DNA of 64,000 bases from Daucus carota subsp. sativus (Eukaryota > Streptophyta > Magnoliopsida > Apiales > Apiaceae), in assembly GCF_001625215.2 (NCBI RefSeq), contig NC_030386.2, positions 36,149,296-36,213,295 on the forward strand, written 5' to 3'. Shown piece by piece: positions 14,411 to 39,813 of the stretch. How positions within the stretch are numbered: the stretch's first letter is position 1; every line of letters begins with the position of its first letter. The notes under the pieces are model-generated. The model did no database searches. It saw only the letters and a list, made by a program, of their open reading frames with translations, and was not told the origin of the DNA. A program made the translations under genes and the position numbers.

Positions 14411-15700
14411 AGGATTCAAGATAGATTTAGCACAAGCATGAGATCTAATGCGTGAATGGCCAACTCTAAGAGCTATTTTGACTATTAACCATAATCACAA
14501 GTTCCATCTCTACAAACAGCTGTTCTATTCACTTGCAAACCAAATATCAAAAAGGACAACAGTTCCTATACAGATTATTTCGCATGGGATTGAAGTTCCA
14601 CGTACAACGAAACAAAATGATACATAGGATTAAAGTTCCACATACAACGAAATAAAATGATACCAGTATACATCTACCAAACCATATTCAATATAGGTTA
14701 CAATTTACATCAATCTTTGTGATACCGGTATACATCCACCGCACCCATATCCCATATGGGTTACAATTTACATCAATTCTTATTTGTCTATGATACCGCT
14801 ATACATCTACTGCATCCATATTTCATATGGGTTACAATTTACATCAATCCCTATTTGTCTACTTGGCGGAAAGGCCTCTAAGAGGCAGAGGGACTTCAAA
14901 ATTGCAAGTGAAAGAAATACATCTCGGCATTCCTGGTATTCCTCTCGTTTGGGCTTCCATCTTTATACAATTGGAAGCCATCTCTGGAGTCTGGACCATC
15001 TCTTGAATTCTCGAATAACTTGTATGATCACACAAGTTATACGGATCACTGTAGCCCAATTTAATCACTGCAGATCAAATCTTGTATTTCTGCGACCCGT
15101 CTTCTTTTAATCAGAAGTGCTGGGAGACGCGGAACACCGGAGATTTGTACTGCCGATTTGGATCATCAACTGGTCCATCCTACAAGAGAAGAAATGTTGG
15201 TTTCAAACCACAACGCTAGACAAATTGATAACACTCTGATATATAGATCATACTAACAAATAAATGAAAAACAATAAGATCTGTGAGAATCTTGAAAGAT
15301 GAATATCTTCCGCGTATAAATTTAGAAGAACGTTACCTCACTGAACCCTTTAGACGGCCGATCTTTTCGAAGCACTTTCTTCATTGTTTACTACAAATAT
15401 TCAACAAATATATGAATCACAACAGAAGGTTCTAGATTTAGAATTTCAATACAAAGTAGATCTAGATCTAAAAATTTACAACTAATCAACATATGAGATT
15501 AATGATTGTATGATTATAAATGAGTATATAGCTCAATTAGATCAACACACTGATATCTAGATTAATTGTACATATCGATTGCAGAATCGCAAGAAAGATT
15601 GAAGAACGGTGAAGAAGAAGATAGTTAATTAAGATAAGGTAGAGAAGAGATGAGAAAAGTATACAGTGGGTTGGAGGGTATAGACAGAATTTATAAACTA
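14411..15700 (-). ncRNA. S1: small spliced transcription unit, copy 1 (lncRNA or micropeptide gene)
   Basis: Not a family I recognise. On the minus strand a TATA-like TTTATAAA (15690-15697) is followed by a pyrimidine-rich leader, an apparent 5'-UTR intron ending TATTTGTAG, and then ATG at 15384. Exon 15337-15384 (donor GAG|GTAACG) joins exon 15111-15179 (acceptor CTTGTAG) to give a 38-aa frame starting MKKVLRKDRPSKGFSE and ending in VFRVSQHF, then TGA. S2 and S3 share promoter, leader, splice sites, ATG context and 3' region. The second-exon frame is not conserved, so a non-coding role is equally likely. It lies tail-to-tail with CID B. Confidence 0.35.
14659..14862. repeat. Three-copy tandem repeat (62-71 bp) in S1
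   Basis: Units 14659-14720, 14721-14791 and 14792-14862 each start GATACC(A/G)(G/C)TATACATC and contain GGTTACAATTTACATCAAT. The expansion is absent from S2 and S3, so it arose after they separated. On the minus strand it lies in the 3' part of S1. Confidence 0.85.
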
Positions 15701-17083
15701 AAGTTTGTAATTCGCAACTACCGAAATAAATGCCGCATTTAATTCTGATATAAATTAAGCTTCGTGCTTATTTACTACACCCTATGGTTCGTTACACAGC
15801 CCGTTTAATTTTTTGGGCGTGTCTTTAGAAAAATTTGACCACATATTTAAAGTTAATATTTTTAAAATTTTCTTTTTCTAAATAAAATATTTTTATTTAG
15901 AAGAAAAATTACAAAATATTAGTATTTGCTATACGGTCAAAACACCAAAAATTACAAGTAAAAGGTAAAACGTGTTATATAATGGATCCGAGGGGATACT
16001 CTTTTCATCCAAAACTCTATTTTCAGTACACATTTATCAACAATCTTTTATTCTTACCCTTTCTTATTTATCATTTTAAATGAACTCCCTTCGTATTACA
16101 ATAATAAATACTCAATGATTAGTTTTTCTTTTTATCAAATGGTGTCATTTCATATATTCAACTTATAATTGATGTTTGTGATAAAAAAAACTTATAATTG
16201 ATGTTCTTATGATTTAAATTTCGTATAGTGAATACCCCTTCTATTACTTACCGTAAATATTAGTCAAATGTTAAATCATAAGAATATAACGCGTTAAGTT
16301 CAAGAAATAAGGTTTTATCTAAAATATTAAGAGTACAGGAATACAATATAGTTTTCAGGTCTCAGAGCACGTGTATCAAAAATCAAAAAAATATGAATTT
16401 TCACTTATATTTATACGATTATTCTTTAATATGATATGAAATTATAAGCGATTGAAAAATATATAAAAATATTAATATAAATAATATTTTAATTTAATAA
16501 AAATATTCTGACATAGAGCTCTATCGGTGAATTAAGTAGATAACAAATTTTTGTAAAAGCTGAAAAACACCTTTTCTAAGTGACCGTTTGGGTGGGTTTA
16601 AAATAAGTGTTTCTTGATTAAGGTATAAAAGTAAAGTAGAAGTTAGAAGCAAGTTAAGACTTATAAGTGATTAAAGTGTTTGGGAAAGAAGCGGAAGCTA
16701 CGAGGGAAAAGCTATCATTTGTAACTTCTAAAAAGTGCAGGTTAAGAAAAGCAGAAGTCAACTTTTTTGGAAAAGAAGTGCTTCTTATGTGTTGTCAAAC
16801 AGGCCCTAAAAGTATGAGAAATCTGCTTTTTCTAAAAGCATTTTTCAACTAGAAATTACAGCTGGAAAAAGCTTTTTTTAGATCTATCAAATAATTTTTC
16901 AGTTATTTTTGTGTGTAACATGAATGCTGAATGGTACTACCTTAGTGTTTTACAAACTATCAATCGCCCCGACGTGGGGTGAATACGTGAATTATGTGTG
17001 ACCTTGCTTTTCCCACATTGTCATCGCCCTTTGCAGGGGTGAACTTTTATCACGTTTTTGCTCCACCAAGAAGCTATCATCAA
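15701..17083. other. Intergenic, no gene seen
   Basis: AT-rich spacer upstream of S1. The stretch 16590-16810 (GTTTGGGTGGG at one end, CAAACAGGCCC at the other) resembles a degenerate MITE, but the terminal match is too weak to delimit it. Confidence 0.4.
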
Positions 17084-17978
17084 GGCCTCGTTTGGTTGAC
17101 AGGATCTTGAGTTACACAGGAAGCAGAAGTTCCACGGAACTAGGTTACAATGTCCATCATTTAACATGGAACTCTAAAACCTGTGTTTGGTGTGTTATAT
17201 TTATATAAGAATGTAATTATGTAATTGAAATTTTGATAATATAAAATTAATGAATTTATATAACATATAAAAAGCAAAAATTATTTGATATGTAGTATTA
17301 AATAAAATAATATAAATTTTAACATAATATTAAAAATGAAAATTATATATTGAGATTTACAAAATATATAAAAAGATTATTAAAATGATATATTAATAAA
17401 TTAATGAAATACGTTTTTGGTATGTAAGTATAATTATATTCACCTTTTTTATCAAATTTTAAATATTATAGTAAGATAACTTAGTTATATAAAAGTATAT
17501 TATTTAAAACAACTTACTTACAAATATAATTAGTTATAGTTATATTAGAAAAAATACAAATTTAAAATTATACAAACACGAATTTAAAAATATTGACATA
17601 CGAAAATACTGTAATATAAAATTATTATAATTAGTATTGGGAAATAATTGTAACATATATAAAATATTAAGTAAAAGTTAAACTAATATTAACATATATA
17701 AATAAGTAATTTATATTAAATATTATTTATATATATAATAATTATATTATTAATAAAGAAAGTTTGAAGAAAATATCAAACATTCACACCGTAACCCAGA
17801 AAAACCACGCTTGAGCTGTGTAACTAGGTTACTGTGTTTTGCAGGAAGTTGAGATACTCAGGAACTCTGAGTTACATAATTACTTAAATAAAAAGTTGTG
17901 TAACCAAACACTGTAACTTACCTCGGTTCCAAGGAAGTTGAAGTTACAGTGTTGGGTTACATCCAACCAAACGAGGCC
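17084..17978. mobile_element. PIF/Harbinger-like non-autonomous element (895 bp)
   Basis: Terminal repeats GGCCTCGTTTGGTTG and CAACCAAACGAGGCC are perfect over 15 bp and are flanked by CAA on both sides (17081-17083, 17979-17981), a 3-bp duplication. Subterminal motifs (GTTACACA, GTTACAGTGTT and complements) are repeated in both orientations inside each end, as transposase-binding sites often are. The core is very AT-rich and non-coding. Confidence 0.8.
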
Positions 17979-18433
17979 CAAGTATTTTTTCTCATTTTCG
18001 GTTCAGGTGATGATCGCCCATGTTTACATTTAAGACATCCTAAAATGTCTACAGACGTTCGGGATACTCAATTTGTCAATAAAATGTTCTTGGTGCCTAC
18101 AAATATCCAAGAGCCCACTTTCGAATTATATTCACAAGCAGCTCTTTCTAGTTTCTAATACGTGGATTATCCTTTTTGCCTTGGTGAGAGGCTGAGAGCC
18201 ATACTCAAATATGCTAATAGTCTACCTGTTTGCATTAAACGGCCCCCAAATCCCATTGTCACTTGCATCCATCTTAACAATAAGAATAGGCTATAGTCCG
18301 ACAAAGCGAGGACCAAAATATTCATAATCTCATCCTTCAATGTGGCATATTACCCAAAGTTAAAGGTCCCTTTTAAAACCAGTGACAAGCTTCTCTATAA
18401 TTCTTCACAAATCAAGCTCCTAGTAAGTTAATA
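17979..18433 (+). pseudogene. Possible gene relic of unknown origin
   Basis: From 17979 to about 18433 one + frame reads with protein-like composition (for example RPCLHLRHPKMSTDVRD, CLGERLRAILKYANSL, RPPNPIVTCIHLNNKN) but contains two internal stops and no plausible start. The sequence before the Harbinger-like insertion (about 16960-17083) has a similar higher-GC composition, suggesting the element split it. I cannot name a family. It may be chance. Confidence 0.2.
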
Positions 18434-18519
18434 TAAAATATCAAGCTCCAAGAGTCTATTAATTGGTTCCTATATATAATATAAAATATCAAGCTCCTAG
18501 TAAGTTAATACAAAATTAA

Positions 18520-19166
18520 GAGTGCCAACTCCAACGATGCTCTTTATATTTACTCTTAACTTGTATTTTATTCATATTTTGAATTCAAACATTTGTCATG
18601 TAATGTGAGTCTAATGTAAGAATTGAAGGATATGATTATTTTATTTAGTTAAGAGCAACTCCAGCAGCTTCCCTATTTGGAGTCTTAAACCAAAATATGA
18701 GGAATATGGGAAAATAATCCACTCCAACAGTATCTTAGTGATTCCCTAAATCACTAAGATCCACTAGCCATCCCTTATCTTTAGGGAACCTCTCTCCTCT
18801 CCTAAATCTTATTTTATAATAAATTTTGAATACAAACATGTTCTCTTTCTTCACCTATTGTAATAATGGTAAATTTTAATAATAAAATAGTATATAAGGA
18901 ATGAATATAAGGAATATTGTTGGAGGTGAGAATAGCTATTATTATCTTAAGTCACTAGGATCCAATATTTTATATTATATTTAAGGAATGAGCTGAGATG
19001 CTGCTGGAGATGCTCTAAGAGCCACCTAGTAGCTCTTAAATTAGAGGAGAGAGAAGAGACTCTTAAGATTTTTAAGAGTCACTGAGAGTCTCTTGGAGCT
19101 CTATTTTTTCTCATCTGCCTCATATTTTGATTTAAGAGCTAGTTTAGGAGTCTCTTGGAGATGCTC
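18520..19166. mobile_element. Tourist-like MITE, outer member of a nested pair
   Basis: Ends GAGTGCCAACTCCAA and TTGGAGATGCTC form an imperfect terminal repeat, flanked by TAA on both sides (18517-18519, 19167-19169). Without the inner insertion (18653-19015 plus one TAA) it would be about 281 bp. Confidence 0.7.
18653..19015. mobile_element. Tourist-like MITE, inner member of a nested pair (363 bp)
   Basis: Terminal repeats GAGCAACTCCAGCAGC and GCTGCTGGAGATGCTC, with a TAA duplication (18650-18652, 19016-19018). It is inserted into the MITE 18520-19166, so it is the younger of the two. Confidence 0.82.
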
Positions 19167-19446
19167 TAAGGCTTGTAAAACCCCTAAATTATTAAAGTAG
19201 CTTTTTCGTGATTTTAGCGGTCCTCCGTGACTTGAAGTCTTGAACTCTGCAGGATCAATCGCCACATCCTCCTTTGTTATTCTAATACCATGCCTTGATT
19301 ATTCTCTGTATTGCCAAAAAAACACTTCGTTTTACGTACATTTTTTTATTTTAGGAATTTTTTTGAGATCACCCTCAAATACAAAAATATCGACAAAGAA
19401 CACTAAAAGCTTTTTTGAAGATGATGGACAAAAACACTATCCATAA

Positions 19447-19840
19447 GAGCATCTCCAACGGCGTTGGCTATAATCGTTGGCTAAATCGGACCTGTAAGAC
19501 ATTATGTAAAATTTGCTGAACCTGTAGGAATTTTGCTTCAATGGTACTGGCTATATTGGTTGGCTATAATTTAAAAATAGTATGTTATTAATATTTTAAA
19601 TTGTTAAAATAGAATATATCAGTTCAATATGGTAATAAATGATGGACAATCTTCCTACAGATTTTCTTACAGACCTGTAGAGGTTCGACAAATTTAACCA
19701 TCCATAGGAGGTTGGCTAAATTTATAGACAACAGCTGATCATGGTTGGAGTTCAGTTTTTGGAGCTGTTGGCTATATCTTTTTATTTTAAGTATGCCAAC
19801 TCACCTTTTAGCCAAGGGATTTAGATGGTTGGAGATGCTC
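19447..19840. mobile_element. Tourist-like MITE (394 bp)
   Basis: Ends GAGCATCTCCAACGG and TTGGAGATGCTC, with a TAA duplication (19444-19446, 19841-19843). Internally it repeats GTTGGCTATA-type motifs. Degenerate relatives lie at about 23725-23850 and 37395-37518. Confidence 0.8.
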
Positions 19841-19843
19841 TAA

Positions 19844-20181
19844 GTGGCTATAATAATATTAGGGCATTTTTCGGTCCAAATTATATGAGTTTAAACTCGT
19901 AAGCCATTGTGAGCTTGAAAAGTTATTTTATGTATTTCTTCTTCGGCTACCGATTGTTGGCCGCGAGGCGCGAATACCCGTTAATGGAATTCTTATATTC
20001 AAGACAAATTTTCTTTATTCTTACGATGTGGATTCAACACTCATTTGATCATTTGATTCTTGGGTTATGCAATGTAACATGTTTTCAAGATGTGTTGCTT
20101 AGTTCCTTAAATATGATGACTATTGGTCAATTTCGCGTATGTTGTAAAAAATTTTACTCATAAAATATTAAGCACTGAATT
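19844..20181. other. Intergenic, no gene seen
   Basis: About 340 bp between a MITE and the 3' end of S2. An open frame here (19909-20163) has no recognisable similarity and no splice or promoter context; I treat it as chance. Confidence 0.4.
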
Positions 20182-21325
20182 AGGATTCAGGATAGATTTA
20201 GCACAAGAATAAGATAAAACACGGTGAATGGAGCAATTTTGGCTATTAATCATAATTCAAAGTTCCATATCTACAAACAGCCGTTCTATCACTTGCAAGT
20301 TGCAAATCAAAAACGAAGACATGACATCAATAATTCGTATACAGATTTTGATCACATTGGATTGAATTTTCACATACAACAGAGTGGGAACATCTTATAC
20401 ATGATATTGGTATACATCTATCTCATCTATATTATTTCAAGCAGCACAATACACAAACAATCCCTATTCGTCTAATTGACGGAAAAGCTCTAAATTAGAC
20501 CTCTTGTTGTCCTGCGGATGGAAGAAGCTCTTCTATTGCAACAAGTTGCCCCGCCTGCTTTTTATCTGGAAAGGGAAATGCTAGCGGGAGTGGAAGAAAT
20601 ATCAAATCCCTGGTCTTCAGATGAGATTCACCAGGCTCTACCAGGAGTTTAACACCTCTTAATGCTTTCTGCTTGTGCAATATCCCCGGATGCAAGATTT
20701 AGATTAGGGATCTTATCTTGAAGGGGTCCATCCTGCGAGAAAAAAAATGATGGTATCAAATGATGATTCTGATTTATTGATCATACTTGACAGCGGTTAT
20801 ACGGATAAAATAAATGGTAACAATAAGCACAAAAGTGCGAAAAATTACCTTATTAGCGGTCTTCGATATCCGCCGTTTTTCTGGAGCATTTTCTTCATTA
20901 TTTACTGCACATATGTACGAGTAAATTATAACAGAAGGTGCTAGATCATAAATTCCAGTGCAGAGAAGATCTAGAAATTCAAAATTAATTAACACATAAG
21001 ATCAATAATTGGCTAACATTCAAAACCCTAAATTCATATTAAAGAGATGAGGGAACAAGATGATCAAATTAATTCAATTTTCTAAATATATTTGATTTGT
21101 TGATCGCAGATAAAAGAGCATCAGAGAAGATAAATTGCGCACGATTATAAATGTAGAGAGCCCAATTACGTTATATATCAATTACAAAATCTCCGAGAGG
21201 ATTGAAGAACAGCGGAGAAGAAACGGCAAAGAAGAACATGGTTGCTTAGGTTTAGCCGTTTAGGAAGGATGAATTAAAAATGAAAGACGGGTGCTACCAT
21301 CTACATTAGTTGGAGTATATAAATG
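20182..21325 (-). ncRNA. S2: small spliced transcription unit, copy 2
   Basis: Paralog of S1. A TATA-like box on the minus strand (about 21315-21323) is followed by a pyrimidine-rich leader, a 5'-UTR intron ending GTGCAG, and ATG at 20898. Exon 20849-20898 (donor AAG|GTAATT) and exon 20699-20732 (acceptor CTCGCAG) give a 27-aa frame starting MKKMLQKNGGYRRPLIR. The first exon is 2 nt longer in phase than in S1, so the second exon (starting GATGGACC as in S1) is read in another frame. The 3' block around 20235-20300 matches S1 closely. Unknown function. Confidence 0.32.
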
Positions 21326-21473
21326 GAATTCAGAAATTAAAGCTGTAATGTCCCACCTACCTTATTAAATGACATTTAATAAAAATACTCGAAATTTTTG
21401 CTAAATTATTACTGTAAATTTAAGTTGGCAGTGTCCCAACTACTAACCGAGTAAATGGCATTTTTTATTTAAA

Positions 21474-23331
21474 CTAGCTTTTAACCCGTGCGAAGCACGG
21501 GCGGGTATATAGTTCGTAATTTATTATTTATAATTTAAATTTTAACATCATTTTATTAATATTTAAGTATTAACGAATTGAATTTTAATTAAATTATATT
21601 ATTCAACTGACTATATATATAGACAAAAGTTATTTGGGATCCTATATTTTCTTGGAGTCTTGGAGTCCAAATCTAGGCCCTCCATTTTAAAAGGATCCAA
21701 CGGAGTGCATTACAACTGTTTTGTTTTTAAAAAAAATATAATATATTTAAGTTTATACAACCAGCGGCAAATTGTAACAGTTTTGTACTGTCTGTGCGGA
21801 CAGCGCGAGTCATGCGGAGGTTACAACAAGATGAGATTCTTCAGGAATTCAAACTGCAATCGTGTCCTGCATTCCTTCTATCCCCTTATAATCTGTTTTC
21901 ACCCTTTCATCCATTTGTTTGGAGGTACGAACAAATAATTCAGTCGCAGGACGGTATTCGTTTGCAGCACGTTAATGTGATGTCTGATCAGAATCATGAT
22001 ACAAGCAAGTACTGCATATCATTTGCTTCAAAGTAAGGTGTGGGACAAAAAATAAACCCCCCAACAAACAAATGCAGGACACTAGACGCAACTCGTGCTC
22101 ATCAAAGGACACTACACATGCTGCAATCACAAGTGCAGAACATACACAGGATTAAACTTTGTACTGTGCACATACAACTCCAATTACAAAATACCCAGAT
22201 GTCCACAAAATAAGAAACTAAACACCAAGATGTTCCCAAACTCAAATGTACTGAACTAACAGAAACTCATTAACCGTTTCGCAATTGATAGTCGAATTAC
22301 TCTAAATCAGATTATAGTTGCTTAGAGTGCCAATTAAACTCACACCCTCCCAAACAATTTCTTAATAAACCCCAAAATCAATAAACTCCCCTCGATTGTC
22401 TCGAGGAGCAAAATATAGGGTGACCCATTGAAGTATGATGCCACCGTACTGCAAATCTGAGATGATCGAGATCGAAAATCCGCCATGTAAACAAAAGTGA
22501 AGAACAAACAAAGTAGAATGTTGTAACTTAGGTACATCCTGCAGCGCACACCTCAGTTGTTTAAATCAGTGCGGCAAGTCCGCACCTCTGTATGATCACA
22601 GCGAAAAACAAGCCCCGGTGATAACGGAGGAAGTTTTGAGCGGATGATGCGGGATTTAGCTTTGAATTAGCGTTTAAATTTTTTTAAAATTGATTCTATA
22701 GTTTTTTTATTAATTAAAATTGATTTTACTGGATTAAATCTCAACCACAGGATCTTTTTATAATCTAATGGTGGATCTTAAGGACTCCAATTTCTCACAA
22801 AATCTAGTACCCCAAAGATCTCCACTCTTCATTTAATCCGAATTAAGTATATGCAGATTTAAAAATAAAAAAATAAGATAATTCAAATTTTTGCCAAACA
22901 TAGCTGATTGTGTAATACCTTTGAAAGATTCAGTAATCTAATCAATCGAATTTCAAACGTAATTTTGTAATCTTGGTTTTTTTTTCCGACAATAACTTTT
23001 AATATTAGAGTTAGAAAGAGTTATGTAATGGTTCGTGTTTATATTGAAATAGAACACGTTAAAATTAAAAAGAGTTATATGAAGGTTCTTGTTAAAAAAA
23101 ACATATTCAAAATATTATATTTATAATTTTATTTATAACATAATTATAATTTTTTTAATGAAATATTATATGATAATATATTGTTATGAGTGTTTTTAGT
23201 ATTTGAAACTGTTTAACAATATAATACTAATGGACTCCACATTTGTAGCTTGTAGTACCAAATCAAAAAATATAACTAAAACCTTGGACTACAAATTATA
23301 CTCATATTGGCTTATTATAGTATAATATAGA
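21474..23331 (-). mobile_element. Probable Helitron, non-autonomous (1.86 kb)
   Basis: On the minus strand the 3' end has the stem-loop CCCGTGCTTCGCACGGG, then TTAAAAG, then CTAG (the CTRR terminus, 21474-21477), followed by a host T. About 1.86 kb upstream on that strand the sequence begins TCTATATTATACTATAATA after a host A (23332), as Helitrons insert between A and T. No Rep/helicase is seen. The inside contains another inverted-repeat structure (21636-22820). The 5' boundary is less certain than the 3' one. Confidence 0.6.
21636..22820. mobile_element. Inverted-repeat element or captured segment inside the Helitron
   Basis: Imperfect arms of about 75 bp: the left contains CTTGGAGTCC and AAAAGGATCC; the right, complemented, contains ATTGGAGTCC and AAAAGATCC in the same order. 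Between them lies about 1 kb of higher-GC sequence, with a + frame at 21794-22036 and a minus frame at 22340-22549. I recognise neither. It looks like a Mutator-type element carrying captured host sequence, but no target duplication was found. Confidence 0.4.
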
Positions 23332-23359
23332 TTCCTATAGATATTAACAAATAATTTAA

Positions 23360-23541
23360 CGGTCTTTCTAATGTGTGCCCAAGAGCACACAATAAGCACG
23401 TATTTTCATGAAAAAGGCTTGTTTTAATTGGTGGAATTGGTGTGAATGCAGGGAGGCCATTAACATCTATTACTCATCCACCAATCAAAAGCTAGTATTT
23501 TCATGAGAGTTAGTGACTATTGTGTGCACATAGAAAAATCG
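23360..23541. mobile_element. Mutator-type MITE (182 bp)
   Basis: Long terminal repeats (about 65 bp, imperfect) start CGGTCTTTCTAATGTGTGC and the complement of the right end reads CGATTTTTCTATGTGCACAC. A perfect 9-bp target duplication, ATAATTTAA (23351-23359, 23542-23550), fits Mutator superfamily insertion. Confidence 0.85.
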
Positions 23542-23724
23542 ATAATTTAATATTAAAGACACCTACCTCAGTGAATGGTGTATTTGAACCGGTTAAGCTA
23601 AAATTAGTTGGTTCCATCAAACCTAGATTATGTCTAAAATTTGTTGTATTCGTAAAACATTATGTTTTGATGATAGTAATTGTATTAATTGATTATATGT
23701 TATTGATATTTAGATTGGTATAAG

Positions 23725-23850
23725 TAAAAATATATCAGTTCAATATATTAATAGGTGATGTTTAATTTTTCACAGGTATGTAGAGTTTCAATAAATATAG
23801 TCAATACGCATAGTCAATACCAAGAGAATTGGCTGTGTTTAAAGTATAAT
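23725..23850. repeat. Degenerate fragment of the 19447-type MITE
   Basis: ATATATCAGTTCAATAT and the following sequence align with the right half of the MITE at 19447-19840. No termini are preserved. Confidence 0.4.
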
Positions 23851-24123
23851 GGAGGACCCAGTAATTTTGGCAAGCGGCTTCCATATATAAATCGTGGCAA
23901 GAGTTGCAGAGAGTTGTTGTGATTGTGAGCACAAAGAAGAGATGAAGGACGCGAATTCTATGCTGCTATTTATTTACGTTATTTTTTCTCCTTATTTACG
24001 TCGCTGCTCTAAGAATTTTACACTGCTTGTTAATTTTTTGAAATGAGCCTCTGAATAATTATGGATTTCTAAATAATTTTTAAGAAGTTACTTACTAAAT
24101 TTTCGATTTATATTGGGCTTGGG

Positions 24124-24128
<5 letters not shown>

Positions 24129-24187
<59 letters not shown>
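24129..24187. repeat. (TA)n microsatellite, about 29 units
   Basis: Uninterrupted alternating TA. No other function visible. Confidence 0.95.
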
Positions 24188-24193
<6 letters not shown>

Positions 24194-24680
24194 CTCTCAA
24201 TCTCTCTTTTAAGGTTGTACCTAGCTCTCAAAAAGTAGTTCTGAAATTTTCTTCCAATATATTTGAAACTAAAATAGATGGTTTATGTTTCTGATATTTT
24301 TCATACAAAATTTTTAGAAAATTAGAAAAATAGAACGGAGCTCTCCGAGAGGCGCCACCTAGACGACCCCTGCTTCTCCTTTATATAAGTATACGATAAC
24401 TTATGAATTATTAAAAATATAATTATAAAAATAAATTTGATAGATTATCTATTTTATTGTTTTTATTAAAAGTTTTCCTTAAAATGAAAATGCCTTAAAC
24501 CGACATGCTCTAATAGATCCCAAACAGGCTATTTATATTTGTTAATTTTGGTGACCCTTGACATTATTATTACTAACTTGTAAATCCAAGTACCTTCATT
24601 TGTATACAAGAAATATGGTATATGTTGGCAACGAGCTGCTATTTTGGCTATTAATCATAATCCCAAGTTCCACCTCTATA

Positions 24681-24924
24681 GTCGTTTGGTTCATGCCTTT
24701 CTAGTATCAGGTATGGGTTTCGTTCATTCCAAACCCATACCTGGTGTTTGGTTGAATTTTTTTTTGCTTCAAACCCATGACTCAAACCTACAAGGTATGA
24801 GATTTTCATACCCAAGGGGAGGGGTGGGTATGAAACATGGGTTTGAGGAATCAACTTGTTTTCTTTTATTTTCATTTTTGTTTATATCCTTAAATTCAAA
24901 TTATTAGTACCAAATGAGATTGAT
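24681..24924. mobile_element. Hairpin-rich MITE-like insertion, left part
   Basis: Relative to S1 and S2, the S3 3' block is interrupted after CACCTCTATA. The inserted sequence contains nested palindromes: AGGTATGGGTTT (24709-24720) with AAACCCATACCT (24731-24742), TTTCATACCC with GGGTATGAAA, and a CAAACCCATG / CATGGGTTTG pair. The long-LTR element is inserted into it at the TTGAT duplication, and its right part continues at 35885-35972. Superfamily not determined. Confidence 0.5.
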
Positions 24925-27900
24925 TGTGACGGCCCGAGAATCCGGGGGCCTGGATTCTGACGTCACCACACAAAACCCTTTTAAAACACTTTTGAAACCC
25001 TGTATATTTTTTTTTCTTTTAAAGATAATGAAAATCCAAAAGAATTTAAAACTTGAAAACATTTAATAAAAACTTTGAATGAGAACATAAATCAAATGAT
25101 TTCAAGACCTGAAAGTTTAAACTTGAAACCATCATAAAAGAATTTCCAGAGAATATTTAAACTTTAATAAATGATTCAAAAGAGAACATTTAACCCCCAA
25201 AAACAACAGGATCGCTTCCAGGTTACAGTATTGAAATTAGAATCCACCACTAATACTACACAACATTTCTTACCAAGTCAGATCATCTTCGATATGAAGA
25301 ATCACTGTCAACTCTTCCAGCTATGACTTACATCTGAATCTAGATCGCACAACTCGAGCTAGCACCGACCTCATCAACTTTCCTGAACACTCCTCGACCA
25401 CTTGATCCTCAACTCTGTCTCCTCGTCTAGCATTAGTCTTATCCACAATCTCAATCAATCATCTTATCTTTCAGCCTTTCTGAAATGGTGAGAAAGGAAT
25501 AGCAAGAGTGAGCAACAATGCTCAGCAAGTAATAATAAACAATGATAACTCTGAAATGATATAACATAAGTTCACGAGTTCAAGATATAAGAAGATTCAA
25601 CCTGAGTTCACAATTTCAGGTATTGTATAAAAGAATCACAATACCTTGCAGCAATAGAAACCTGAGGAATTCAATCCTTCACAAGAGAATTATTGAATTG
25701 GACTATCACATTTTAATTAAAAACCAAGGTTAGGATGCTGATCAGTCATACCTAACCCCGAGCAGGCCCCGCCATGCTCTATCACTGGATCCAAGGCACT
25801 CATTGGCCTAGCATGACCACGAATCTGGTCTGACCACTCATTTGGTCCACATAATTTTATAAAAACAATAATCCAATTCTCTAATTCAATTCAAGAAGCC
25901 AATGTAAGTTAACAGAACATAATCATCATCATCATCAACCACTGAATAATTCCAAATCAAACTTTGATAATAACTTTCCATAAGTCACAGTCCATCCTTC
26001 CATAAATCATAGTTCAGGAAATCCCTAACTATTCAATATCCTCCATTATCGGCTAATCAACTGAATTTAGCCTGCTAAACCAGCATGACAATGGCGGTTT
26101 GAATAATCAAGAAGATCCCAATTCATTCAAAGCTCTAACTATCACTGAGCAACACATGCTTCAATGACAATCTGAACTTCGAATTAATTTGAAAAACGGA
26201 AATTATCTGAATTTTTTTCGAGGATTAGAAAAGGATGGATAAGAATATTTGCATTTGCCAAATATGAAAAAGAAAGGAACTAATATTTGCAACACATTCG
26301 AAAAGAATGGATCAGAATAATCGCAAGATATCCAAGAGAAGGGTATAGGATACTTGCCTTAAATCTGACTCCAGTCTCACATCTCAATCTCATCTTTCCA
26401 CTTTCACAATCTATGCACCTTGTAATCTCTAGACCATCTCTAGCTATACTCTATTCGCCACATTGCTTCGCTTACTCGATTCATTCTTTATTCGCTTTGG
26501 AACACCACTTGTCCTTCTGAACGTCTTCGGTCATCCTTGTCTCGTCCAAATCCTTAACGAGAATAAGATAATACTATAGTCACTAATCAATCAATCGCAT
26601 ATACATATCACGTATATCGATACCCACTTATATACCCCTTTAAACTTATCACATATCACTTAACACGTAATCATGCTTTGACTCTACCATATAGTCAAGT
26701 CATATTCCACATAACATATTACCAATCACTTATCATATGAATCCTATCGAAAATCCGACATCATCTCGTCTATTTATTAGACTATCCACCTGTTATCCTA
26801 TCTCAATCAACAATCACCCAACAAGATCCAATTACTATAATCCATATATTCTTATCCAATATCAATCAACTCACGACACTATGTCATCCAAATCTTTTAT
26901 CACACGTGTATACTATCATGAATAAACATGTATATCACGTAATCATCAATTAATAGCAATCAAATAACATATAATCACATTGTGCACATTTAACAACAAT
27001 TATTCACATTCTCGACTCCATCATATTATTATGTTATATCAAACTAGACTTTATAAGCTTCTGTCTCTCTTTCGTTTCACTTGATTCCGATTTACGGATC
27101 AAAAGTTATGATCAAAATTGTTTCCTACTTCCTCTATCAACACATAACACATCACTCTAATAACACACATCACATAACACATAAGATTTCCCATCCCGAC
27201 TAATGTCAAATCGAGTCTCGGGTTTAAAATGATTTTTCGAGAATTTTCTGGAATTTTTAAACATTTTTCGGAATGAAAATTGATAAAAGAATCACTTTTC
27301 GGATAAATAATCAAGTCCCAAATACTTGAAATTGGACTTGAAATCATTCCTAAACAATTGTCGAGCCTTGAACATAATTTAGAAAAATATTTCAAAGCTC
27401 GAAACTATTTTTCGGAATTTTTAAATAAAAAAAATAATTAAATCCAATTAATTAATCAATTAAGATCAATTAATAATTAATTAAAATAATTAATCAATTA
27501 ATATTTAAATTAATTGACCAATTAAAATAATTAATTACTAATTAAAATTAATTAATAAATCAAATTAGATTTATTTTTAAATAAAGAAATAATTAAAAAC
27601 TATTTTTGAAATTAAAGAAAATAAGTATAAAAACAATTTTTAAAAGACTTAAAAATAAAGGGTTTAATCTGCTAGTTTTGGAAACTTCTAGCAGGGTTTG
27701 ATTTGCAAAACCAGAAACTTTGGGGGTGGATTTGTAATACTGCAGTAGATGGGTGGTGAAATTGAAATTTCACCACCATCTCCCCCAATCGCCGCCGGCA
27801 GCCATGGCTGCCGCCTTGGAGCTCGTCGGACAACGCCACCACTGACCAGAAACCCTCCAAACTCTCCAGATCTCTTCCCTTATCTCCCCACAACTCCACC

Positions 27901-29473
27901 ACGCTTTCAGTTTCAAGAAACAAGCAACGAGGTGGCCGGAAAAAGCTTGGAAACCTCGCCGCCGGCGAGTTTCTTTCAAACTCCGGTGACCCCTTTCCGG
28001 GAATCCCACATAACTTTTGAACATACCCACAAGTTCCTCTCTTCACACTCTTTCTAATGGTATAAGCCATGCATACCCAGAATTAACAGAACGCAATCTC
28101 CGGCCAAAAATCAATATTTTCCGGCGAAAAACGCAAGAACACCAAGAACACTCAATTTCAAAGATTAAACTGACTTTTCGAGGTGTTATTGAACTCAAAA
28201 ATTGACATATGATATACCAAAACGACGAGAAAAACATGCTCTACAACATGGAATCATCAAAACAATCAAACAAACACGTTTACAAAAATCCACTATTTAA
28301 ATCTTAATAACTCGAATTTTAAAACTTCAATTACTCCCTACCTGTGAATCTCATGTTGTTTTTGATTGCAGATATAGATTCTACTCTTCGATATCTTCGA
28401 TTTGACTATTCGCACGCTTGATTCTGACTCCAATAACGCCTTCAAATCCACGTTTGATTATGAAGAACACGAAGAACGCAGCTCGGTTTCTCTCGGTATT
28501 CGTGCAGAGAAACTGGTGAAATGATTTTTACGGGTGAAAATAAGCTCTAGAAAGGTATATTTATATTTACAACTAATTGGTACCCCTTTGGATCGTATAT
28601 GACATGAAAATACGTATTTACTAGCTTTATATTAATAAAGCGGGGTCCAATCGGTACTGGTTTTCAAGATAATCATCAAAACGGGGCTTTTTAACTCAAT
28701 TATTGGTCTGCGGGTCCCACTGCAATTATTACATGATAAGGATGACGAAAATATCTCGTTTCACGTTTATCGAGACAAACTGGATAATTATCGATAATTT
28801 TAGTACCCGAAAAACTCCGCCGGACCGACTACGGGGAAAACCGTACTCCGGATCGAAAAAGTCAAAACACGAAAAATGTCCGGAATATTCAAATTAGGCT
28901 AAAGGTGAGTTTTCTCGAAACTTCCGGAAAGAAAATTTGCTACACCGTTACGAGTGGACGGTTTTACGGAAATCAAATAATCAATAATTAAATATAAATA
29001 TACGCAATTAAATCCGTAAATCAATTATAAAATCATCTAACATTCCATAAATCGATATGAAAATATCCAAATAAACTATATTTTCTCCTGAGCCTATAGA
29101 AATTGAAATATCTCAAATACGAACACATCTGAGCAGTTAACGCAATAAACCATATAATATAAAATTCACAAAAATTCATATATTAATCATATAATACTCA
29201 TAATTAACCATAATTAATTAACCAACAAATTCACCAATACCACTTAATCACATAACACATATATTCCCATAATACTCATCTAGAATTTTCGAAACAATAT
29301 ATGAAAATCAGTTTTAAAAATACAATTATTTATTAATAACACAATAACCCGGGTTTAAGTATAAAACCTTGAAAATTCATTAAACTGGGATAAAATATTA
29401 AATCTTATTCCTTTCTTTTTAAGAAAATCATTTATAATATTAATAAAATATTTTTAAAATCCGGGTTATTACA
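24925..29473 (-). repeat. LTR, downstream (3') copy of the long-LTR element
   Basis: 4,549 bp, collinear with 31336-35884 at a constant offset of 6,411. Contains an AATTAATTAA-rich tract (about 27430-27560) and a GC-richer block (about 27740-28010). Open frames inside it are identical between both LTRs and are not protein genes I recognise. Confidence 0.95.
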
Positions 29474-29489
29474 ATCTACCCTCCTTATA
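29474..29489 (-). other. Polypurine tract of the long-LTR element
   Basis: On the minus strand, TATAAGGAGGGTAGAT immediately precedes the 3' LTR. It is the expected plus-strand primer position. Confidence 0.75.
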
Positions 29490-29672
29490 GGGATTCCGTC
29501 CTCGGAATCAGAAAAAGAAGGAGGACGCATAATCTGTAAAATCCATATTAATCCACATAACAAGTATAATCACATACACACTATTCACATAATCACATCA
29601 ATATTCAACTAGAGACAACAATAATATCTAGACAAATAGATGTATAATAATCAAATCTGAATTTAATAGTAT

Positions 29673-29720
29673 GGGATATTACATTCTACCCCCCTTATAA
29701 GGATTCCGCCCTCGGAATCC
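29673..29720 (-). repeat. Second polypurine-tract/LTR-start unit inside the element
   Basis: About 210 bp inside the true junction the same arrangement recurs: a purine run (GGGGGGTAGAA on minus), then TGTAATATCCC, which resembles the LTR start TGTAATAACCC. The preceding CGAGG(A/G)CGGAATCC-type sequence is also duplicated. Confidence 0.7.
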
Positions 29721-30126
29721 GCAAAGAGAACTCAAACGTATCACTTTGAAGATTCCACTATACACTTCGTAATAACGTATCATCATTCACCTTTGATCGG
29801 CCTTGGCATACCTTTAGCTTTAAAGAAATTGGAGAATCAACTTACACAATTGCAGAATTCATTTCCCAAGAATCAATCTTTGGAAATTTCAGAGTAACAA
29901 GATGTTTTCAAAATAGGTGACATTGGAATACAAGAGTGACTGGGAGATCAATACGATCAAATGAACTTAATGTTGCGTGTCCATATTAGACACTACTAAA
30001 GGTTGTTAACCTTCTTGTAATCACAACACACACAAGTGATGGCGTCCCATCCAACTCCTATCACACAGACAGGTATACCTTGTGTCCCCTATAAATAGGG
30101 TTGTTCATCCCAATCAAATTGAATAA

Positions 30127-30250
30127 ATGTCAAGGAATATCAAAGAATGTCAAGGAATATCAAAGATATCAAAGAACATCAAGGGATACCAGGGAAGATG
30201 AAAGGGTATCAAGGAATGTCAAGAAATGTCAAACAATATCAAGGAACATC
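30127..30250. repeat. Short degenerate tandem repeat in the internal domain
   Basis: Roughly a dozen tandem variants of a 10-11-mer like TCAAGGAATA / TCAAAGAATG. Purine-rich on +, pyrimidine-rich on the element's own strand. Non-coding. Confidence 0.8.
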
Positions 30251-31321
30251 ACTATCTCTTCACAACAAACCTTTATCACACATCTTTGCTTTCCAACTCA
30301 TACCAATAATCAATATCAATGTCATCTTAGAATTTGAGAAATTGAAAATCTCGTTTATCGAAATGATATCATAATAACTCACTGATGAAAAACATATAAT
30401 CAAAAGAATCTTTAGTTGAAGAGAGGTACTGCCAAGGTCTTCTCAAATTACTGCTCTACTTCAAAAATCATCGTTCGTTGTATATCTCCTTTTCAGCCTT
30501 CTCGATAATTGATCGACGTTCAATCGTAATAGCGTCGTAAGATGTCATTGTTCGTAATAAGTCTGGCCCAAGTAGTTTACATTATTTCATCCCAATTGCC
30601 TTTGAAGTCCATAGCATGACATGTAACATATCTTCAATCGTTTGGATCGTCAACCTGTGGGTTATGGGCCCACCTTGATATCGTTTGAAATCCCGATTAG
30701 CTCGAAGCGTTGTCGTCGAGGACTAACGTTCTAACTTACTCGTAGACATCATTTCTAATAACTGGACTCAATTCCACATATTCTCTATCATTCCCTTCTC
30801 ACCTATCAACCTCTATATACCAATCTCTCCTTCTAATCCAATACAACTCATATTCTACATTCACCTTTCATATCTTCACTCAAAACCATATACATCTTCC
30901 AAATATCTGACATGGTCAACATACTATGAACCATGCATTTTTATCATTCTCAAATCAATACAATAGACCATTTTCAACTATGCAGTATAGTCAGAATAAT
31001 CTGAACACTGCATTTTCACCATTTTCAACTCAATCATTCATTATCAAACTCTTCTATATAGGTCTAATACTGACCTTTCTCACAATAGTACCATTCTCGG
31101 TTACTCGATCGCTAGAAATGAAATGTCTAAACTTAGGAATCAAAATCTCTCTAAACTTATGCACTCAACTTAGTCGTCTAACTAGATTCTATGCTTCACT
31201 CACATCACTAGACTATTCCCAAATAGTCTAACCATACCTCTATGTGAGGTTACACAACATTCTTCTCTAGAAAATCTATAACTATGATCTATATTCTAAT
31301 TTCAAATACTTATAACCTGTT

Positions 31322-31333
31322 GCTCTGATACCA
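31322..31333 (-). other. Primer-binding site (tRNA-iMet type)
   Basis: On the minus strand TGGTATCAGAGC, complementary to the 3' end of plant initiator tRNA-Met, lies two bases after the LTR end. This fixes the element's direction. Confidence 0.9.
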
Positions 31334-31335
31334 AC

Positions 31336-34300
31336 TGTGACGGCCCGAGAATCCGGGGGCCTGGATTCTGACGTCACCACACAAAACCCTTTTAAAACAC
31401 TTTTGAAACCCTGTATATTTTTTTTTCTTTTAAAGATAATGAAAATCCAAAAGAATTTAAAACTTGAAAACATTTAATAAAAACTTTGAATGAGAACATA
31501 AATCAAATGATTTCAAGACCTGAAAGTTTAAACTTGAAACCATCATAAAAGAATTTCCAGAGAATATTTAAACTTTAATAAATGATTCAAAAGAGAACAT
31601 TTAACCCCCAAAAACAACAGGATCGCTTCCAGGTTACAGTATTGAAATTAGAATCCACCACTAATACTACACAACATTTCTTACCAAGTCAGATCATCTT
31701 CGATATGAAGAATCACTGTCAACTCTTCCAGCTATGACTTACATCTGAATCTAGATCGCACAACTCGAGCTAGCACCGACCTCATCAACTTTCCTGAACA
31801 CTCCTCGACCACTTGATCCTCAACTCTGTCTCCTCGTCTAGCATTAGTCTTATCCACAATCTCAATCAATCATCTTATCTTTCAGCCTTTCTGAAATGGT
31901 GAGAAAGGAATAGCAAGAGTGAGCAACAATGCTCAGCAAGTAATAATAAACAATGATAACTCTGAAATGATATAACATAAGTTCACGAGTTCAAGATATA
32001 AGAAGATTCAACCTGAGTTCACAATTTCAGGTATTGTATAAAAGAATCACAATACCTTGCAGCAATAGAAACCTGAGGAATTCAATCCTTCACAAGAGAA
32101 TTATTGAATTGGACTATCACATTTTAATTAAAAACCAAGGTTAGGATGCTGATCAGTCATACCTAACCCCGAGCAGGCCCCGCCATGCTCTATCACTGGA
32201 TCCAAGGCACTCATTGGCCTAGCATGACCACGAATCTGGTCTGACCACTCATTTGGTCCACATAATTTTATAAAAACAATAATCCAATTCTCTAATTCAA
32301 TTCAAGAAGCCAATGTAAGTTAACAGAACATAATCATCATCATCATCAACCACTGAATAATTCCAAATCAAACTTTGATAATAACTTTCCATAAGTCACA
32401 GTCCATCCTTCCATAAATCATAGTTCAGGAAATCCCTAACTATTCAATATCCTCCATTATCGGCTAATCAACTGAATTTAGCCTGCTAAACCAGCATGAC
32501 AATGGCGGTTTGAATAATCAAGAAGATCCCAATTCATTCAAAGCTCTAACTATCACTGAGCAACACATGCTTCAATGACAATCTGAACTTCGAATTAATT
32601 TGAAAAACGGAAATTATCTGAATTTTTTTCGAGGATTAGAAAAGGATGGATAAGAATATTTGCATTTGCCAAATATGAAAAAGAAAGGAACTAATATTTG
32701 CAACACATTCGAAAAGAATGGATCAGAATAATCGCAAGATATCCAAGAGAAGGGTATAGGATACTTGCCTTAAATCTGACTCCAGTCTCACATCTCAATC
32801 TCATCTTTCCACTTTCACAATCTATGCACCTTGTAATCTCTAGACCATCTCTAGCTATACTCTATTCGCCACATTGCTTCGCTTACTCGATTCATTCTTT
32901 ATTCGCTTTGGAACACCACTTGTCCTTCTGAACGTCTTCGGTCATCCTTGTCTCGTCCAAATCCTTAACGAGAATAAGATAATACTATAGTCACTAATCA
33001 ATCAATCGCATATACATATCACGTATATCGATACCCACTTATATACCCCTTTAAACTTATCACATATCACTTAACACGTAATCATGCTTTGACTCTACCA
33101 TATAGTCAAGTCATATTCCACATAACATATTACCAATCACTTATCATATGAATCCTATCGAAAATCCGACATCATCTCGTCTATTTATTAGACTATCCAC
33201 CTGTTATCCTATCTCAATCAACAATCACCCAACAAGATCCAATTACTATAATCCATATATTCTTATCCAATATCAATCAACTCACGACACTATGTCATCC
33301 AAATCTTTTATCACACGTGTATACTATCATGAATAAACATGTATATCACGTAATCATCAATTAATAGCAATCAAATAACATATAATCACATTGTGCACAT
33401 TTAACAACAATTATTCACATTCTCGACTCCATCATATTATTATGTTATATCAAACTAGACTTTATAAGCTTCTGTCTCTCTTTCGTTTCACTTGATTCCG
33501 ATTTACGGATCAAAAGTTATGATCAAAATTGTTTCCTACTTCCTCTATCAACACATAACACATCACTCTAATAACACACATCACATAACACATAAGATTT
33601 CCCATCCCGACTAATGTCAAATCGAGTCTCGGGTTTAAAATGATTTTTCGAGAATTTTCTGGAATTTTTAAACATTTTTCGGAATGAAAATTGATAAAAG
33701 AATCACTTTTCGGATAAATAATCAAGTCCCAAATACTTGAAATTGGACTTGAAATCATTCCTAAACAATTGTCGAGCCTTGAACATAATTTAGAAAAATA
33801 TTTCAAAGCTCGAAACTATTTTTCGGAATTTTTAAATAAAAAAAATAATTAAATCCAATTAATTAATCAATTAAGATCAATTAATAATTAATTAAAATAA
33901 TTAATCAATTAATATTTAAATTAATTGACCAATTAAAATAATTAATTACTAATTAAAATTAATTAATAAATCAAATTAGATTTATTTTTAAATAAAGAAA
34001 TAATTAAAAACTATTTTTGAAATTAAAGAAAATAAGTATAAAAACAATTTTTAAAAGACTTAAAAATAAAGGGTTTAATCTGCTAGTTTTGGAAACTTCT
34101 AGCAGGGTTTGATTTGCAAAACCAGAAACTTTGGGGGTGGATTTGTAATACTGCAGTAGATGGGTGGTGAAATTGAAATTTCACCACCATCTCCCCCAAT
34201 CGCCGCCGGCAGCCATGGCTGCCGCCTTGGAGCTCGTCGGACAACGCCACCACTGACCAGAAACCCTCCAAACTCTCCAGATCTCTTCCCTTATCTCCCC

Positions 34301-35884
34301 ACAACTCCACCACGCTTTCAGTTTCAAGAAACAAGCAACGAGGTGGCCGGAAAAAGCTTGGAAACCTCGCCGCCGGCGAGTTTCTTTCAAACTCCGGTGA
34401 CCCCTTTCCGGGAATCCCACATAACTTTTGAACATACCCACAAGTTCCTCTCTTCACACTCTTTCTAATGGTATAAGCCATGCATACCCAGAATTAACAG
34501 AACGCAATCTCCGGCCAAAAATCAATATTTTCCGGCGAAAAACGCAAGAACACCAAGAACACTCAATTTCAAAGATTAAACTGACTTTTCGAGGTGTTAT
34601 TGAACTCAAAAATTGACATATGATATACCAAAACGACGAGAAAAACATGCTCTACAACATGGAATCATCAAAACAATCAAACAAACACGTTTACAAAAAT
34701 CCACTATTTAAATCTTAATAACTCGAATTTTAAAACTTCAATTACTCCCTACCTGTGAATCTCATGTTGTTTTTGATTGCAGATATAGATTCTACTCTTC
34801 GATATCTTCGATTTGACTATTCGCACGCTTGATTCTGACTCCAATAACGCCTTCAAATCCACGTTTGATTATGAAGAACACGAAGAACGCAGCTCGGTTT
34901 CTCTCGGTATTCGTGCAGAGAAACTGGTGAAATGATTTTTACGGGTGAAAATAAGCTCTAGAAAGGTATATTTATATTTACAACTAATTGGTACCCCTTT
35001 GGATCGTATATGACATGAAAATACGTATTTACTAGCTTTATATTAATAAAGCGGGGTCCAATCGGTACTGGTTTTCAAGATAATCATCAAAACGGGGCTT
35101 TTTAACTCAATTATTGGTCTGCGGGTCCCACTGCAATTATTACATGATAAGGATGACGAAAATATCTCGTTTCACGTTTATCGAGACAAACTGGATAATT
35201 ATCGATAATTTTAGTACCCGAAAAACTCCGCCGGACCGACTACGGGGAAAACCGTACTCCGGATCGAAAAAGTCAAAACACGAAAAATGTCCGGAATATT
35301 CAAATTAGGCTAAAGGTGAGTTTTCTCGAAACTTCCGGGAAGAAAATTTGCTACACCGTTACGAGTGGACGGTTTTACGGAAATCAAATAATCAATAATT
35401 AAATATAAATATACGCAATTAAATCCGTAAATCAATTATAAAATCATCTAACATTCCATAAATCGATATGAAAATATCCAAATAAACTATATTTTCTCCT
35501 GAGCCTATAGAAATTGAAATATCTCAAATACGAACACATCTGAGCAGTTAACGCAATAAACCATATAATATAAAATTCACAAAAATTCATATATTAATCA
35601 TATAATACTCATAATTAACCATAATTAATTAACCAACAAATTCACCAATACCACTTAATCACATAACACATATATTCCCATAATACTCATCTAGAATTTT
35701 CGAAACAATATATGAAAATCAGTTTTAAAAATACAATTATTTATTAATAACACAATAACCCGGGTTTAAGTATAAAACCTTGAAAATTCATTAAACTGGG
35801 ATAAAATATTAAATCTTATTCCTTTCTTTTTAAGAAAATCATTTATAATATTAATAAAATATTTTTAAAATCCGGGTTATTACA
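31336..35884 (-). repeat. LTR, upstream (5') copy of the long-LTR element
   Basis: 4,549 bp, essentially identical to 24925-29473. It carries the presumed promoter of the element, but I could not place a transcription start. Confidence 0.95.
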
Positions 35885-35972
35885 TTGATGACTCAAAAAT
35901 ATATTAAAAATTATTTCAAATTTTTTTAAAATCAATTATAATTAATCACTTATAATTATAATTATAATTATA
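35885..35972. mobile_element. Hairpin-rich MITE-like insertion, right part
   Basis: Continuation of the insertion at 24681-24919 after the long-LTR element. It ends in a (TTATAA)-like run before the S3 block resumes at TAAGTTGTTCTG. Confidence 0.45.
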
Positions 35973-37200
35973 AGTTGTTCTGTGCACTTGCAAACCAAAG
36001 ATAAAAAATGTGGACAATAGTTCCTATACACAGTATGATCACATGGGATTAAATTTTCACATACAACCCAGCGTGAACATCATTATACATGATACATAAT
36101 CCATATGTTTAAGTAATTTTAGTATTCAATTTGGTCTAGCGGGCTACTTCATGTTGAATTTTTTTTTTTTTTTGACAAATATGACTTCTAGCCTTACAAA
36201 TGAGTATCTGTTTTACGAAATTTTCGGGGTGAGCCAGGTTCGAACCCAGGACCTGGCACGACAGATCATAAGCTCTTTACCACTGAGTTATCCAACCGTG
36301 CTGTCATGTTGATCTAGTATAGCCAGTAATCATGCACTCTGGTCATTAACAGAACCGTGCCATCTTCTTCTAATCAGGAGTGCTGGAATGAGCGAGATAC
36401 CTTGTATTGCTGATTGGCATCATCAACCGGTCATACTACAAGAAAAAGAAACGTTGGTTTCAAACCACAACGCCAGACAAATTGATAACACTATGATATA
36501 TAGATCATATGAACAAATAATGAAAAACAATAAGCAAATAAGATTAGTGAAAATCATGAAAGATGAATATCTCATGAATACTAATCGAGTCCGAATAAAA
36601 AGCAACAATTCTCCACCACTTTGACATGAATATCAATGTGTGGATTTACAATTACTATAGTCCTCCGCTTATAATCAAGCAATAAATTCAAAAGAAGGTT
36701 ACCTGACAGTTCCTTTTAATGATCTCTTGGAGCACTTTCTTCATTGTTTAATACTGCAAGTATTGAACAAACATGTGAATCATTAGTTCATAACAGAAGG
36801 TGCTAGATTATGAATTTCGTAGATCTAAATCTAAAAATTCAAAATTAATCAAAATTGATTAATAATTGGACCAAATACAAAACCGTGAATTCGAATCAAA
36901 GAGATACGAGAGCAAGATGGATCAGATTATTTTGAATTTTGAAATACTTTTAATTTGTATATCGCAGATTGGAGAGCATCAGAGAAGCTGAATACCGTAT
37001 GATTAAAATGTATATAGCTCAATTAGATCAACACACTGATATCTAGCTTGATTGTATATATCGATTGCAGAATCGCCAAGAAGATTGAAGAACAGAGGAG
37101 AAGAACGGCGAAGATGAAGATGGTTAATGAGGATTAGGCAGAAAAGAGATAAGAAAAGAATACAACAGGTTGGTGAGTATAGGCAGATTTTATAAGCTAA
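35973..37200 (-). ncRNA. S3: small spliced transcription unit, copy 3, with transposon-split 3' end
   Basis: Paralog of S1. A TATA-like CTTATAAAAT on minus (37187-37196) is followed by a leader nearly identical to S1 (shared AATTGAGC and TAGATATCAGTGTG), an intron ending ACTTGCAG, and ATG at 36744. Exon 36703-36744 (donor CAG|GTAACC) and exon 36370-36435 (acceptor CTTGTAG) give a 35-aa frame starting MKKVLQEIIKRNCQ. The second exon is shifted relative to S1. The remaining 3' block lies at about 24635-24680, separated by the MITE-like and long-LTR insertions, and a SINE sits at 36158-36303. Its transcript is therefore probably truncated or altered. Confidence 0.3.
36158..36303 (-). mobile_element. 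tRNA-derived SINE, full length (146 bp)
   Basis: On the minus strand: CAGCACGGTTGGATAACTCA head with A box (AACTCAGTGGTAAAGAGC), B box GGTTCGAACC, a short unrelated body, then a poly(A) tail (T run 36159-36173 on +). The target duplication is TCATGTTGA, 9 bp (36149-36157, 36304-36312). It is transcribed by Pol III in this family and mobilised by LINE enzymes. Confidence 0.88.
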
Positions 37201-39655: not shown

Positions 39656-39813
39656 AACTCATTCTGCAGGTATGTTTTCCTTCTCTTCTTTGCTTATTTG
39701 GTTACATATGTACATACACATATATATTTTTTGAATAAAGCTTAAGTCTTTTTTGTTTGTTATAAATTTCTTTTGTTTGAACAGAAATTGAAGTTTTGAA
39801 CAAGTAGTTGATT

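Follow-up and report, generated by a model that had tools for sequence, protein, structure and literature searches.

In grasses, the loci that produce phased small interfering RNAs (phased siRNAs, or phasiRNAs), termed PHAS loci, cluster in arrays. These 21-PHAS and 24-PHAS loci, associated with the microRNAs (miRNAs) miR2118 and miR2275, respectively, are non-coding and number in the hundreds (PMC8368212). Pre-meiotic phasiRNAs were deemed a monocot trait until a few eudicots with lineage-specific triggers were described, among them the 21-PHAS systems of miR11308 in Rosoideae and miR14051 in columbine, whose loci are mostly non-coding and have the target site as their conserved stretch (PMC8368212). 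In strawberry and columbine (PMC8368212), and likewise in litchi (PMC6367383), the trigger site is described as the only conserved element of PHAS loci or as a 22-nucleotide (nt) one. Here, we describe a 64,000-nt stretch of the carrot genome (Daucus carota subsp. sativus, contig NC_030386.2, positions 36,149,296 to 36,213,295; hereafter the window), in which three short minus-strand units, S1, S2, and S3, carry a 22-nt motif. We consider it likely that carrot has a very large family of spliced RNAs, probably without coding function, to which these units belong, and that its members share only a 22-nt site for one 22-nt miRNA and serve as phasiRNA precursors.

Carrot shares its order with Panax notoginseng. 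In the miR1509/TASL/PPR system of that species, for which 204 plus 90 PHAS loci are reported, siRNAs from TAS-like RNAs can target genes related to them (PMC5780745). In carrot, an AIPP2-like gene would take this place; the triggers in that paper were compared by name only. Lettuce, an asterid, has a lineage-specific 22-nt miRNA with many targets. Its 565 reported PHAS loci include 116 kinase genes for which a single trigger is predicted, and, unlike the probably non-coding carrot motif loci, most of the 565 (430) are protein-coding (PMC5394340). The miR11308 and miR14051 systems, with 25 and 65 loci, are set here against about 1,000 carrot sites by number and not by trigger sequence (PMC8368212). 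In carrot, by contrast, splice signals flank a short predicted exon that contains the site. The motif also appears to differ from the miR2118 and miR2275 sites, and introns beside the site are not known to be common in grass PHAS loci.

A 22-nt motif conserved in otherwise divergent loci

A preliminary description of the window had noted that S1, S2, and S3 share an exon starting with ATG followed by AAGAAA. This start is common to the three units, but it is better read as an RNA-level 22-nt motif, AAAYAATGAAGAAARTGCTCCA, than as the beginning of a peptide. The motif opens the ATG exon, one base after an AG in S1 and S2 and four bases after it in S3. Three matches were found in the window (≤3 mismatches), all in sense and all within S1 to S3, compared to a mean of 0.01 in shuffled sequence (0/100 shuffles reached three).

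Across the genome (441 Mb, 11 contigs, with the window on contig C6), the 20-nt core of the motif gave 614 + 539 = 1,153 matches at ≤1 mismatch, compared to a single match for the reversed control. Many of the sites among the matches listed sit in arrays. On contig C2, seven copies lie between 13.837 and 13.854 Mb at a constant spacing of 2,833 to 2,836 bases, which is a young tandem expansion. Pairs of full or partial copies were also seen, tens of bases apart in loci L018, L029, and L040, 417 bases apart in L041, and 1.6 kb apart in L009, and such pairs might suit two-hit precursors. The three-copy family proposed in the preliminary description holds for the whole S unit, which occurs in three tandem copies, while its 22-nt motif is shared far more widely. 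Beyond S1 to S3, searching the carrot genome with the units returned a partial relative, L009, on C3 at 16.6 Mb, along with fragments in other places. Dispersed copies by the hundred, named earlier as the mark of a transposon, were thus found for the motif and not for the S unit.

We compared 52 motif sites (≤2 mismatches) in 48 sources, i.e., the window and loci L009 to L055 from several contigs. Grouping by shared 9-mers gave 27 clusters with unrelated flanks, each entered by one representative. Information was high at motif positions 1 to 22, fell to 0.35 bit at position 23, and was low elsewhere save for acceptor-like bases just upstream. Since the loci had been fetched by the first 20 motif bases, only C21 (26/27 clusters) and A22 (24/27), both outside the fetch pattern, and the drop at position 23 are independent of selection. 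Conservation is confined to 22 nt in otherwise divergent loci.

The motif is flanked by splice-like signals. In the AG ending one base before it, the A is present in 20/27 and the G in 19/27 clusters, so that about 70% of the contexts are acceptor-like. The best donor within 80 nt downstream had a median score of 7.0, compared to 3.6 in each of two other sets, one of 220 windows lying farther downstream (p = 1e-8) and one of 133 upstream windows (p = 3e-8), and scores of ≥7 were reached in 14/27 clusters, compared to 20/220 and 11/133 windows, respectively; scoring used an approximate donor table and covers the motif strand, and the windows are not fully independent.

The variants of the motif point to pairing with an RNA. 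When G:U-compatible transitions alone were permitted (12 sites), 956 matches were obtained genome-wide (control, 11); when G:U-incompatible ones alone were permitted (6 sites), there were 632 (control, 1). The exact motif can number at most 592, the total of a synonym-tolerant pattern, and the extras are therefore at least 364 over the 12 compatible sites versus at least 40 over the 6 incompatible ones. Among the matches listed, the stretch from C1 to C2 3.20 Mb holds 37 exact copies and 63 G:U variants versus 0 incompatible variants; one incompatible variant is listed beyond this stretch, at C2 11.41 Mb. The departures of the S1 motif are C to T and A to G, both of the G:U type. Tandem copies share changes, so that these variant counts are not counts of independent events. 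The preference for A-to-G and C-to-T changes on the motif strand would be explained by pairing to one RNA, and in the main the variants preserve G:U-tolerant pairing with a single small RNA.

A candidate miRNA trigger and the alternatives

Given that a 22-nt site is kept alone in divergent, probably non-coding loci, much as in the PHAS precursors described elsewhere, we propose cleavage by a 22-nt miRNA followed by phasing. The trigger would most likely be an undescribed 22-nt miRNA with a 5' U, approximately 5'-UGGAGCAUUUUCUUCAUUGUUU-3'. It would pair with the motif and cut the transcript inside the motif exon, with predicted cuts at 15378/15377 in S1, 20892/20891 in S2, and 36738/36737 in S3, whereupon RDR6 and a Dicer-like enzyme would convert the 3' fragment to phased siRNAs, plausibly in anthers. 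We infer transcription, splicing, the miRNA, cleavage, phasing, and tissue by analogy with the described systems.

Several observations weigh against this proposal. No convincing MIR hairpin was found in the 48 sources by duplex energies, hairpin models, or folds, and the best duplexes among the 104 flanks of these 52 sites have chance expectations of 0.25 and 0.32. The genome-wide counts are swollen by tandem duplication, 8/27 clusters are without the G of the upstream AG, and 13/27 have no donor scoring ≥7. Signs of coding downstream of the motif are mixed: the longest downstream open reading frame (ORF) averages 58 amino acids (aa), compared to 44 in shuffles (26 clusters), with outliers of 158, 113, and 98 aa; none of six downstream ORFs of ≥64 aa reached the Pfam cut-off, one giving a weak match (E 0.025). 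Six 16-nt strings of the site and trigger matched no text of the open-access papers searched, supplements being outside the scope of that search. Among the top-ranked open-access matches from the carrot, Apiaceae, asterid, or other eudicot phasiRNA literature, none reported this motif system; the sRNAanno database, described in passages that do not name carrot (PMC7917102), may include PHAS data.

At E ≤1, the hairpin models produced 44 and 28 matches across the 48 sources, with a best E of 0.0012; these, however, fall on the motif, and the motif by itself supplies one arm. The top-scoring MIR gene candidate (34.1 bits; L021, 7604 to 7679) was rejected, as the fold of the strand that would bear the miRNA was not superior to that of shuffled sequence (z of -0.05; other strand, -1.14). 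Candidates in L036, L037, L043, and L049 were rejected as well (z of -1.54 to 0.79 over both strands). These four loci and L044 (C2 at 18.4 and 20.4 Mb, C3, and C5) form one related cluster with an imperfect inverted motif copy just upstream, giving a weak, near-background hairpin.

We find it hardly credible that the shared ATG starts a conserved micropeptide (MKK[VM]L...), or that the motif codes for NNEE[NS]AP when read in a different frame. The ATG inside the motif is kept, and the spliced ORF of S1 reaches 38 aa. However, the predicted spliced peptides of S1, S2, and S3 (38, 27, and 35 aa) have no more than MKK[VM]L in common, as had been noted before, and the unspliced frames from the motif ATG span 5 to 52 aa (median, 15; ≤10 aa in 22/52 sites) and are unlike after about codon 6. 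The synonymous bias expected of a peptide is absent, since the NNEE[NS]AP frame shows no silent change except at the Y of the motif (100 listed of 592 matches, many of those listed being tandem copies), and the S1 peptide had no Pfam match. Of the two options left by the preliminary description, the micropeptide is thus not upheld, and the long non-coding RNA is a fitting reading. A transposable element or satellite is very improbable, too: more than 1,000 motif copies exist, some at a constant period (the seven on C2, about 2.83 kb apart), but the 27 clusters have just 22 nt in common, and no full-length dispersed S unit was found among all S1 and S2 candidates and the 40 of 726 S3 candidates scored, the dispersed part of S3 being a short interspersed nuclear element (SINE)-like insert.

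The splice-like signals enriched beside the motif would also suit a strand-specific 22-nt DNA, splicing, or RNA-binding element in long non-coding RNA exons with no small-RNA partner. We regard this as quite unlikely, because the distance from the upstream AG to the motif varies in part of the loci and because the A-to-G and C-to-T preference is accounted for by pairing to one RNA. Pairing-like constraint does not reveal what follows pairing, and the motif could be a small-RNA target that is simply cleaved, or that acts as a target mimic, with no secondary siRNAs made; the loci would then form a large family of sponges or decoys. This, in our judgment, is unlikely: the sites pair unbroken across the center, unlike target mimics, although our ungapped patterns would miss bulged sites. 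Moreover, 22-nt miRNAs are general phasiRNA triggers (PMC8368212).

The complement of the motif starts with TGG, and the primer-binding site of a long terminal repeat (LTR) element was considered and dropped on general tRNA features.

Layout and ancestry of S1, S2, and S3

Mutual alignment bore out the three homologous minus-strand units (Table 1), and a TATA-like box followed by a pyrimidine-rich leader is visible by eye in each. The intron after the ATG exon has a matching donor and acceptor in 3/3 units (GAG/GTAACG..TTGTAG in S1, AAG/GTAATT..TCGCAG in S2, and CAG/GTAACC..TTGTAG in S3), with donor scores of 7.3, 8.8, and 8.4, respectively. For the intron previously placed in the 5' untranslated region (5'UTR), an AG precedes the ATG exon in 3/3 units, but a conserved donor was not found, the top donors in the leaders of S1, S2, and S3 scoring only 2.8, 4.8, and 5.4 at non-equivalent places. 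The 3' block of S3 is broken by the SINE-like insert, which makes up 39/44 S3 match rows, 38 of them at 87 to 93% identity (40/726 candidates scored).

Table 1. Predicted and aligned features of the S units (window positions; all on the minus strand)
Feature	Position	Strand	Basis or remark
S1 unit	14411..15700	-	Alignment and own-genome search; TATA-like box 15690-15695 by eye
S1 22-nt motif AAACAATGAAGAAAGTGCTTCG	15368..15389	-	Two consensus departures, both G:U-compatible
S1 motif exon, predicted	15337..15390	-	Between acceptor TTTGTAG and donor GTAACG
S1 intron, predicted, 157 nt	15180..15336	-	
S1 collinear AIPP2-like remnants (last intron, last exon, 3'UTR)	14494..15253	-	Pieces 69-81% identical to L010
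S2 unit	20182..21325	-	Alignment and own-genome search; TATA-like box 21316-21321 by eye
S2 22-nt motif AAATAATGAAGAAAATGCTCCA	20882..20903	-	Exact
S2 motif exon, predicted	20849..20904	-	
S2 intron, predicted, 116 nt	20733..20848	-	
S2 AIPP2-like remnant (end of last intron, last exon, 3'UTR)	20263..20802	-	70% over 480 nt
S3 unit	35973..37200	-	Alignment and own-genome search; TATA-like box 37188-37194 by eye
S3 22-nt motif AAACAATGAAGAAAGTGCTCCA	36728..36749	-	Exact to degenerate consensus
S3 motif exon, predicted	36703..36753	-	
S3 intron, predicted, 267 nt	36436..36702	-	
S3 AIPP2-like remnants (last intron, start of exon, 3'UTR)	35979..36670	-	66% and 76% pieces, split by SINE-like insert
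SINE-like insert (tRNA-type, by eye) within S3	36159..36302	-	Approximate position; S3 own-genome search (query about 899-1042)

In the own-genome search, the closest non-self match of S1 was S3 and, with the SINE-like stretch set aside, that of S3 was S1 (40/726 candidates scored). The closest match of S2 was an AIPP2-like gene at 3.576 Mb on C3 (L010; 187 bits), followed by S3 (180 bits). A 77-aa piece of this gene matches Pfam SPOC_AIPP2 (E 3e-22), and the downstream halves of S1 to S3 align in order with its last intron, last exon, and 3'UTR. At the protein level, S2 matched the AIPP2-like C-terminus with an E of 5e-11 (two joined pieces, composition correction off). From these alignments, the downstream half of S1 to S3 is read as the decayed 3' end of an AIPP2-like gene. 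The C3 copy itself lacks the motif, its closest sense match having 6 mismatches. A fourth relative, L009, combines two motif exons with this decayed AIPP2-like tail. On C8, the motif-free locus L016 (27.9 Mb) holds 143 nt of the 3' block. Within the 3' block of S1 (about 14657 to 14872, minus strand), a unit of about 60 to 80 nt occurs three times, each copy matching one and the same stretch of L009 and L010. Rfam gave no match at gathering score in the window and in 7 related loci. A box C/D snoRNA in the 3' exon was considered, as TGATGA..CTGA was seen by eye in S1 and S3, and rejected, with none seen in S2 and no Rfam match.

Genes of the PAM2 (CID) type lie near the S units, at 3663 to 4199 (with a Pfam PAM2 match), 10386 to 10946, and 39808 to 40104 (short). 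The best match outside the locus is at C3 3.226 Mb for the PAM2 (CID) gene at 3.7 kb and at C3 3.209 Mb for the gene at 47.9 to 48.6 kb, which we take to be an IQD gene. These matches suggest that the window and the C3 region form a duplicated segment; the AIPP2-like gene lies about 0.35 Mb further along C3. Between S2 and S3, two direct copies of 4,549 bp each (24925 to 29473 and 31336 to 35884; 99.98% identical, starts 6,411 bases apart) probably represent the two LTRs flanking the short interior of a very young LTR element. Elsewhere in this genome, the 36-nt carrot centromere probe (PMC8259371) has 41,223 + 30,159 matches at ≤2 mismatches, compared to 0 for its control; as other Daucus species carry that repeat too (PMC8259371), this result points to carrot or a close relative.

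A possible reproductive phasiRNA system in carrot

The observation made on S1 to S3 holds in the main, and its core is larger than, and different in kind from, the first reading, being a set of probable miRNA-triggered siRNA precursors spread across the genome. A bolder proposal, which we advance tentatively and with some doubt, is that carrot possesses a reproductive-type phasiRNA system not reported before, in which a trigger miRNA of its own would act on about 1,000 spliced target loci and S1 to S3 would be dead AIPP2-like copies turned into precursors resembling those of trans-acting siRNAs (TAS-like), their siRNAs acting back on the other AIPP2-like copy. The spliced 3' fragments of S1, S2, and S3 hold 82, 61, and 29 21-mers, respectively, with ≤3 mismatches to the AIPP2-like last exon and 3'UTR, and in the 21-nt register from the predicted cut, 8, 4, and 2 21-mers have ≤4 mismatches; these are raw counts, and common descent by itself would lead one to expect similarity of this kind.

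In rice, losing an Argonaute that binds such siRNAs leads to male sterility (PMC8368212), and by this token carrot fertility could depend on the pathway. If the proposal is true, the roughly 1,000 carrot loci would exceed the eudicot systems compared here, and S1 to S3 would show a route from decayed gene copies to siRNA precursors. It would also mean that a thousand-site system of an asterid crop can be read from DNA alone, with a candidate trigger named.

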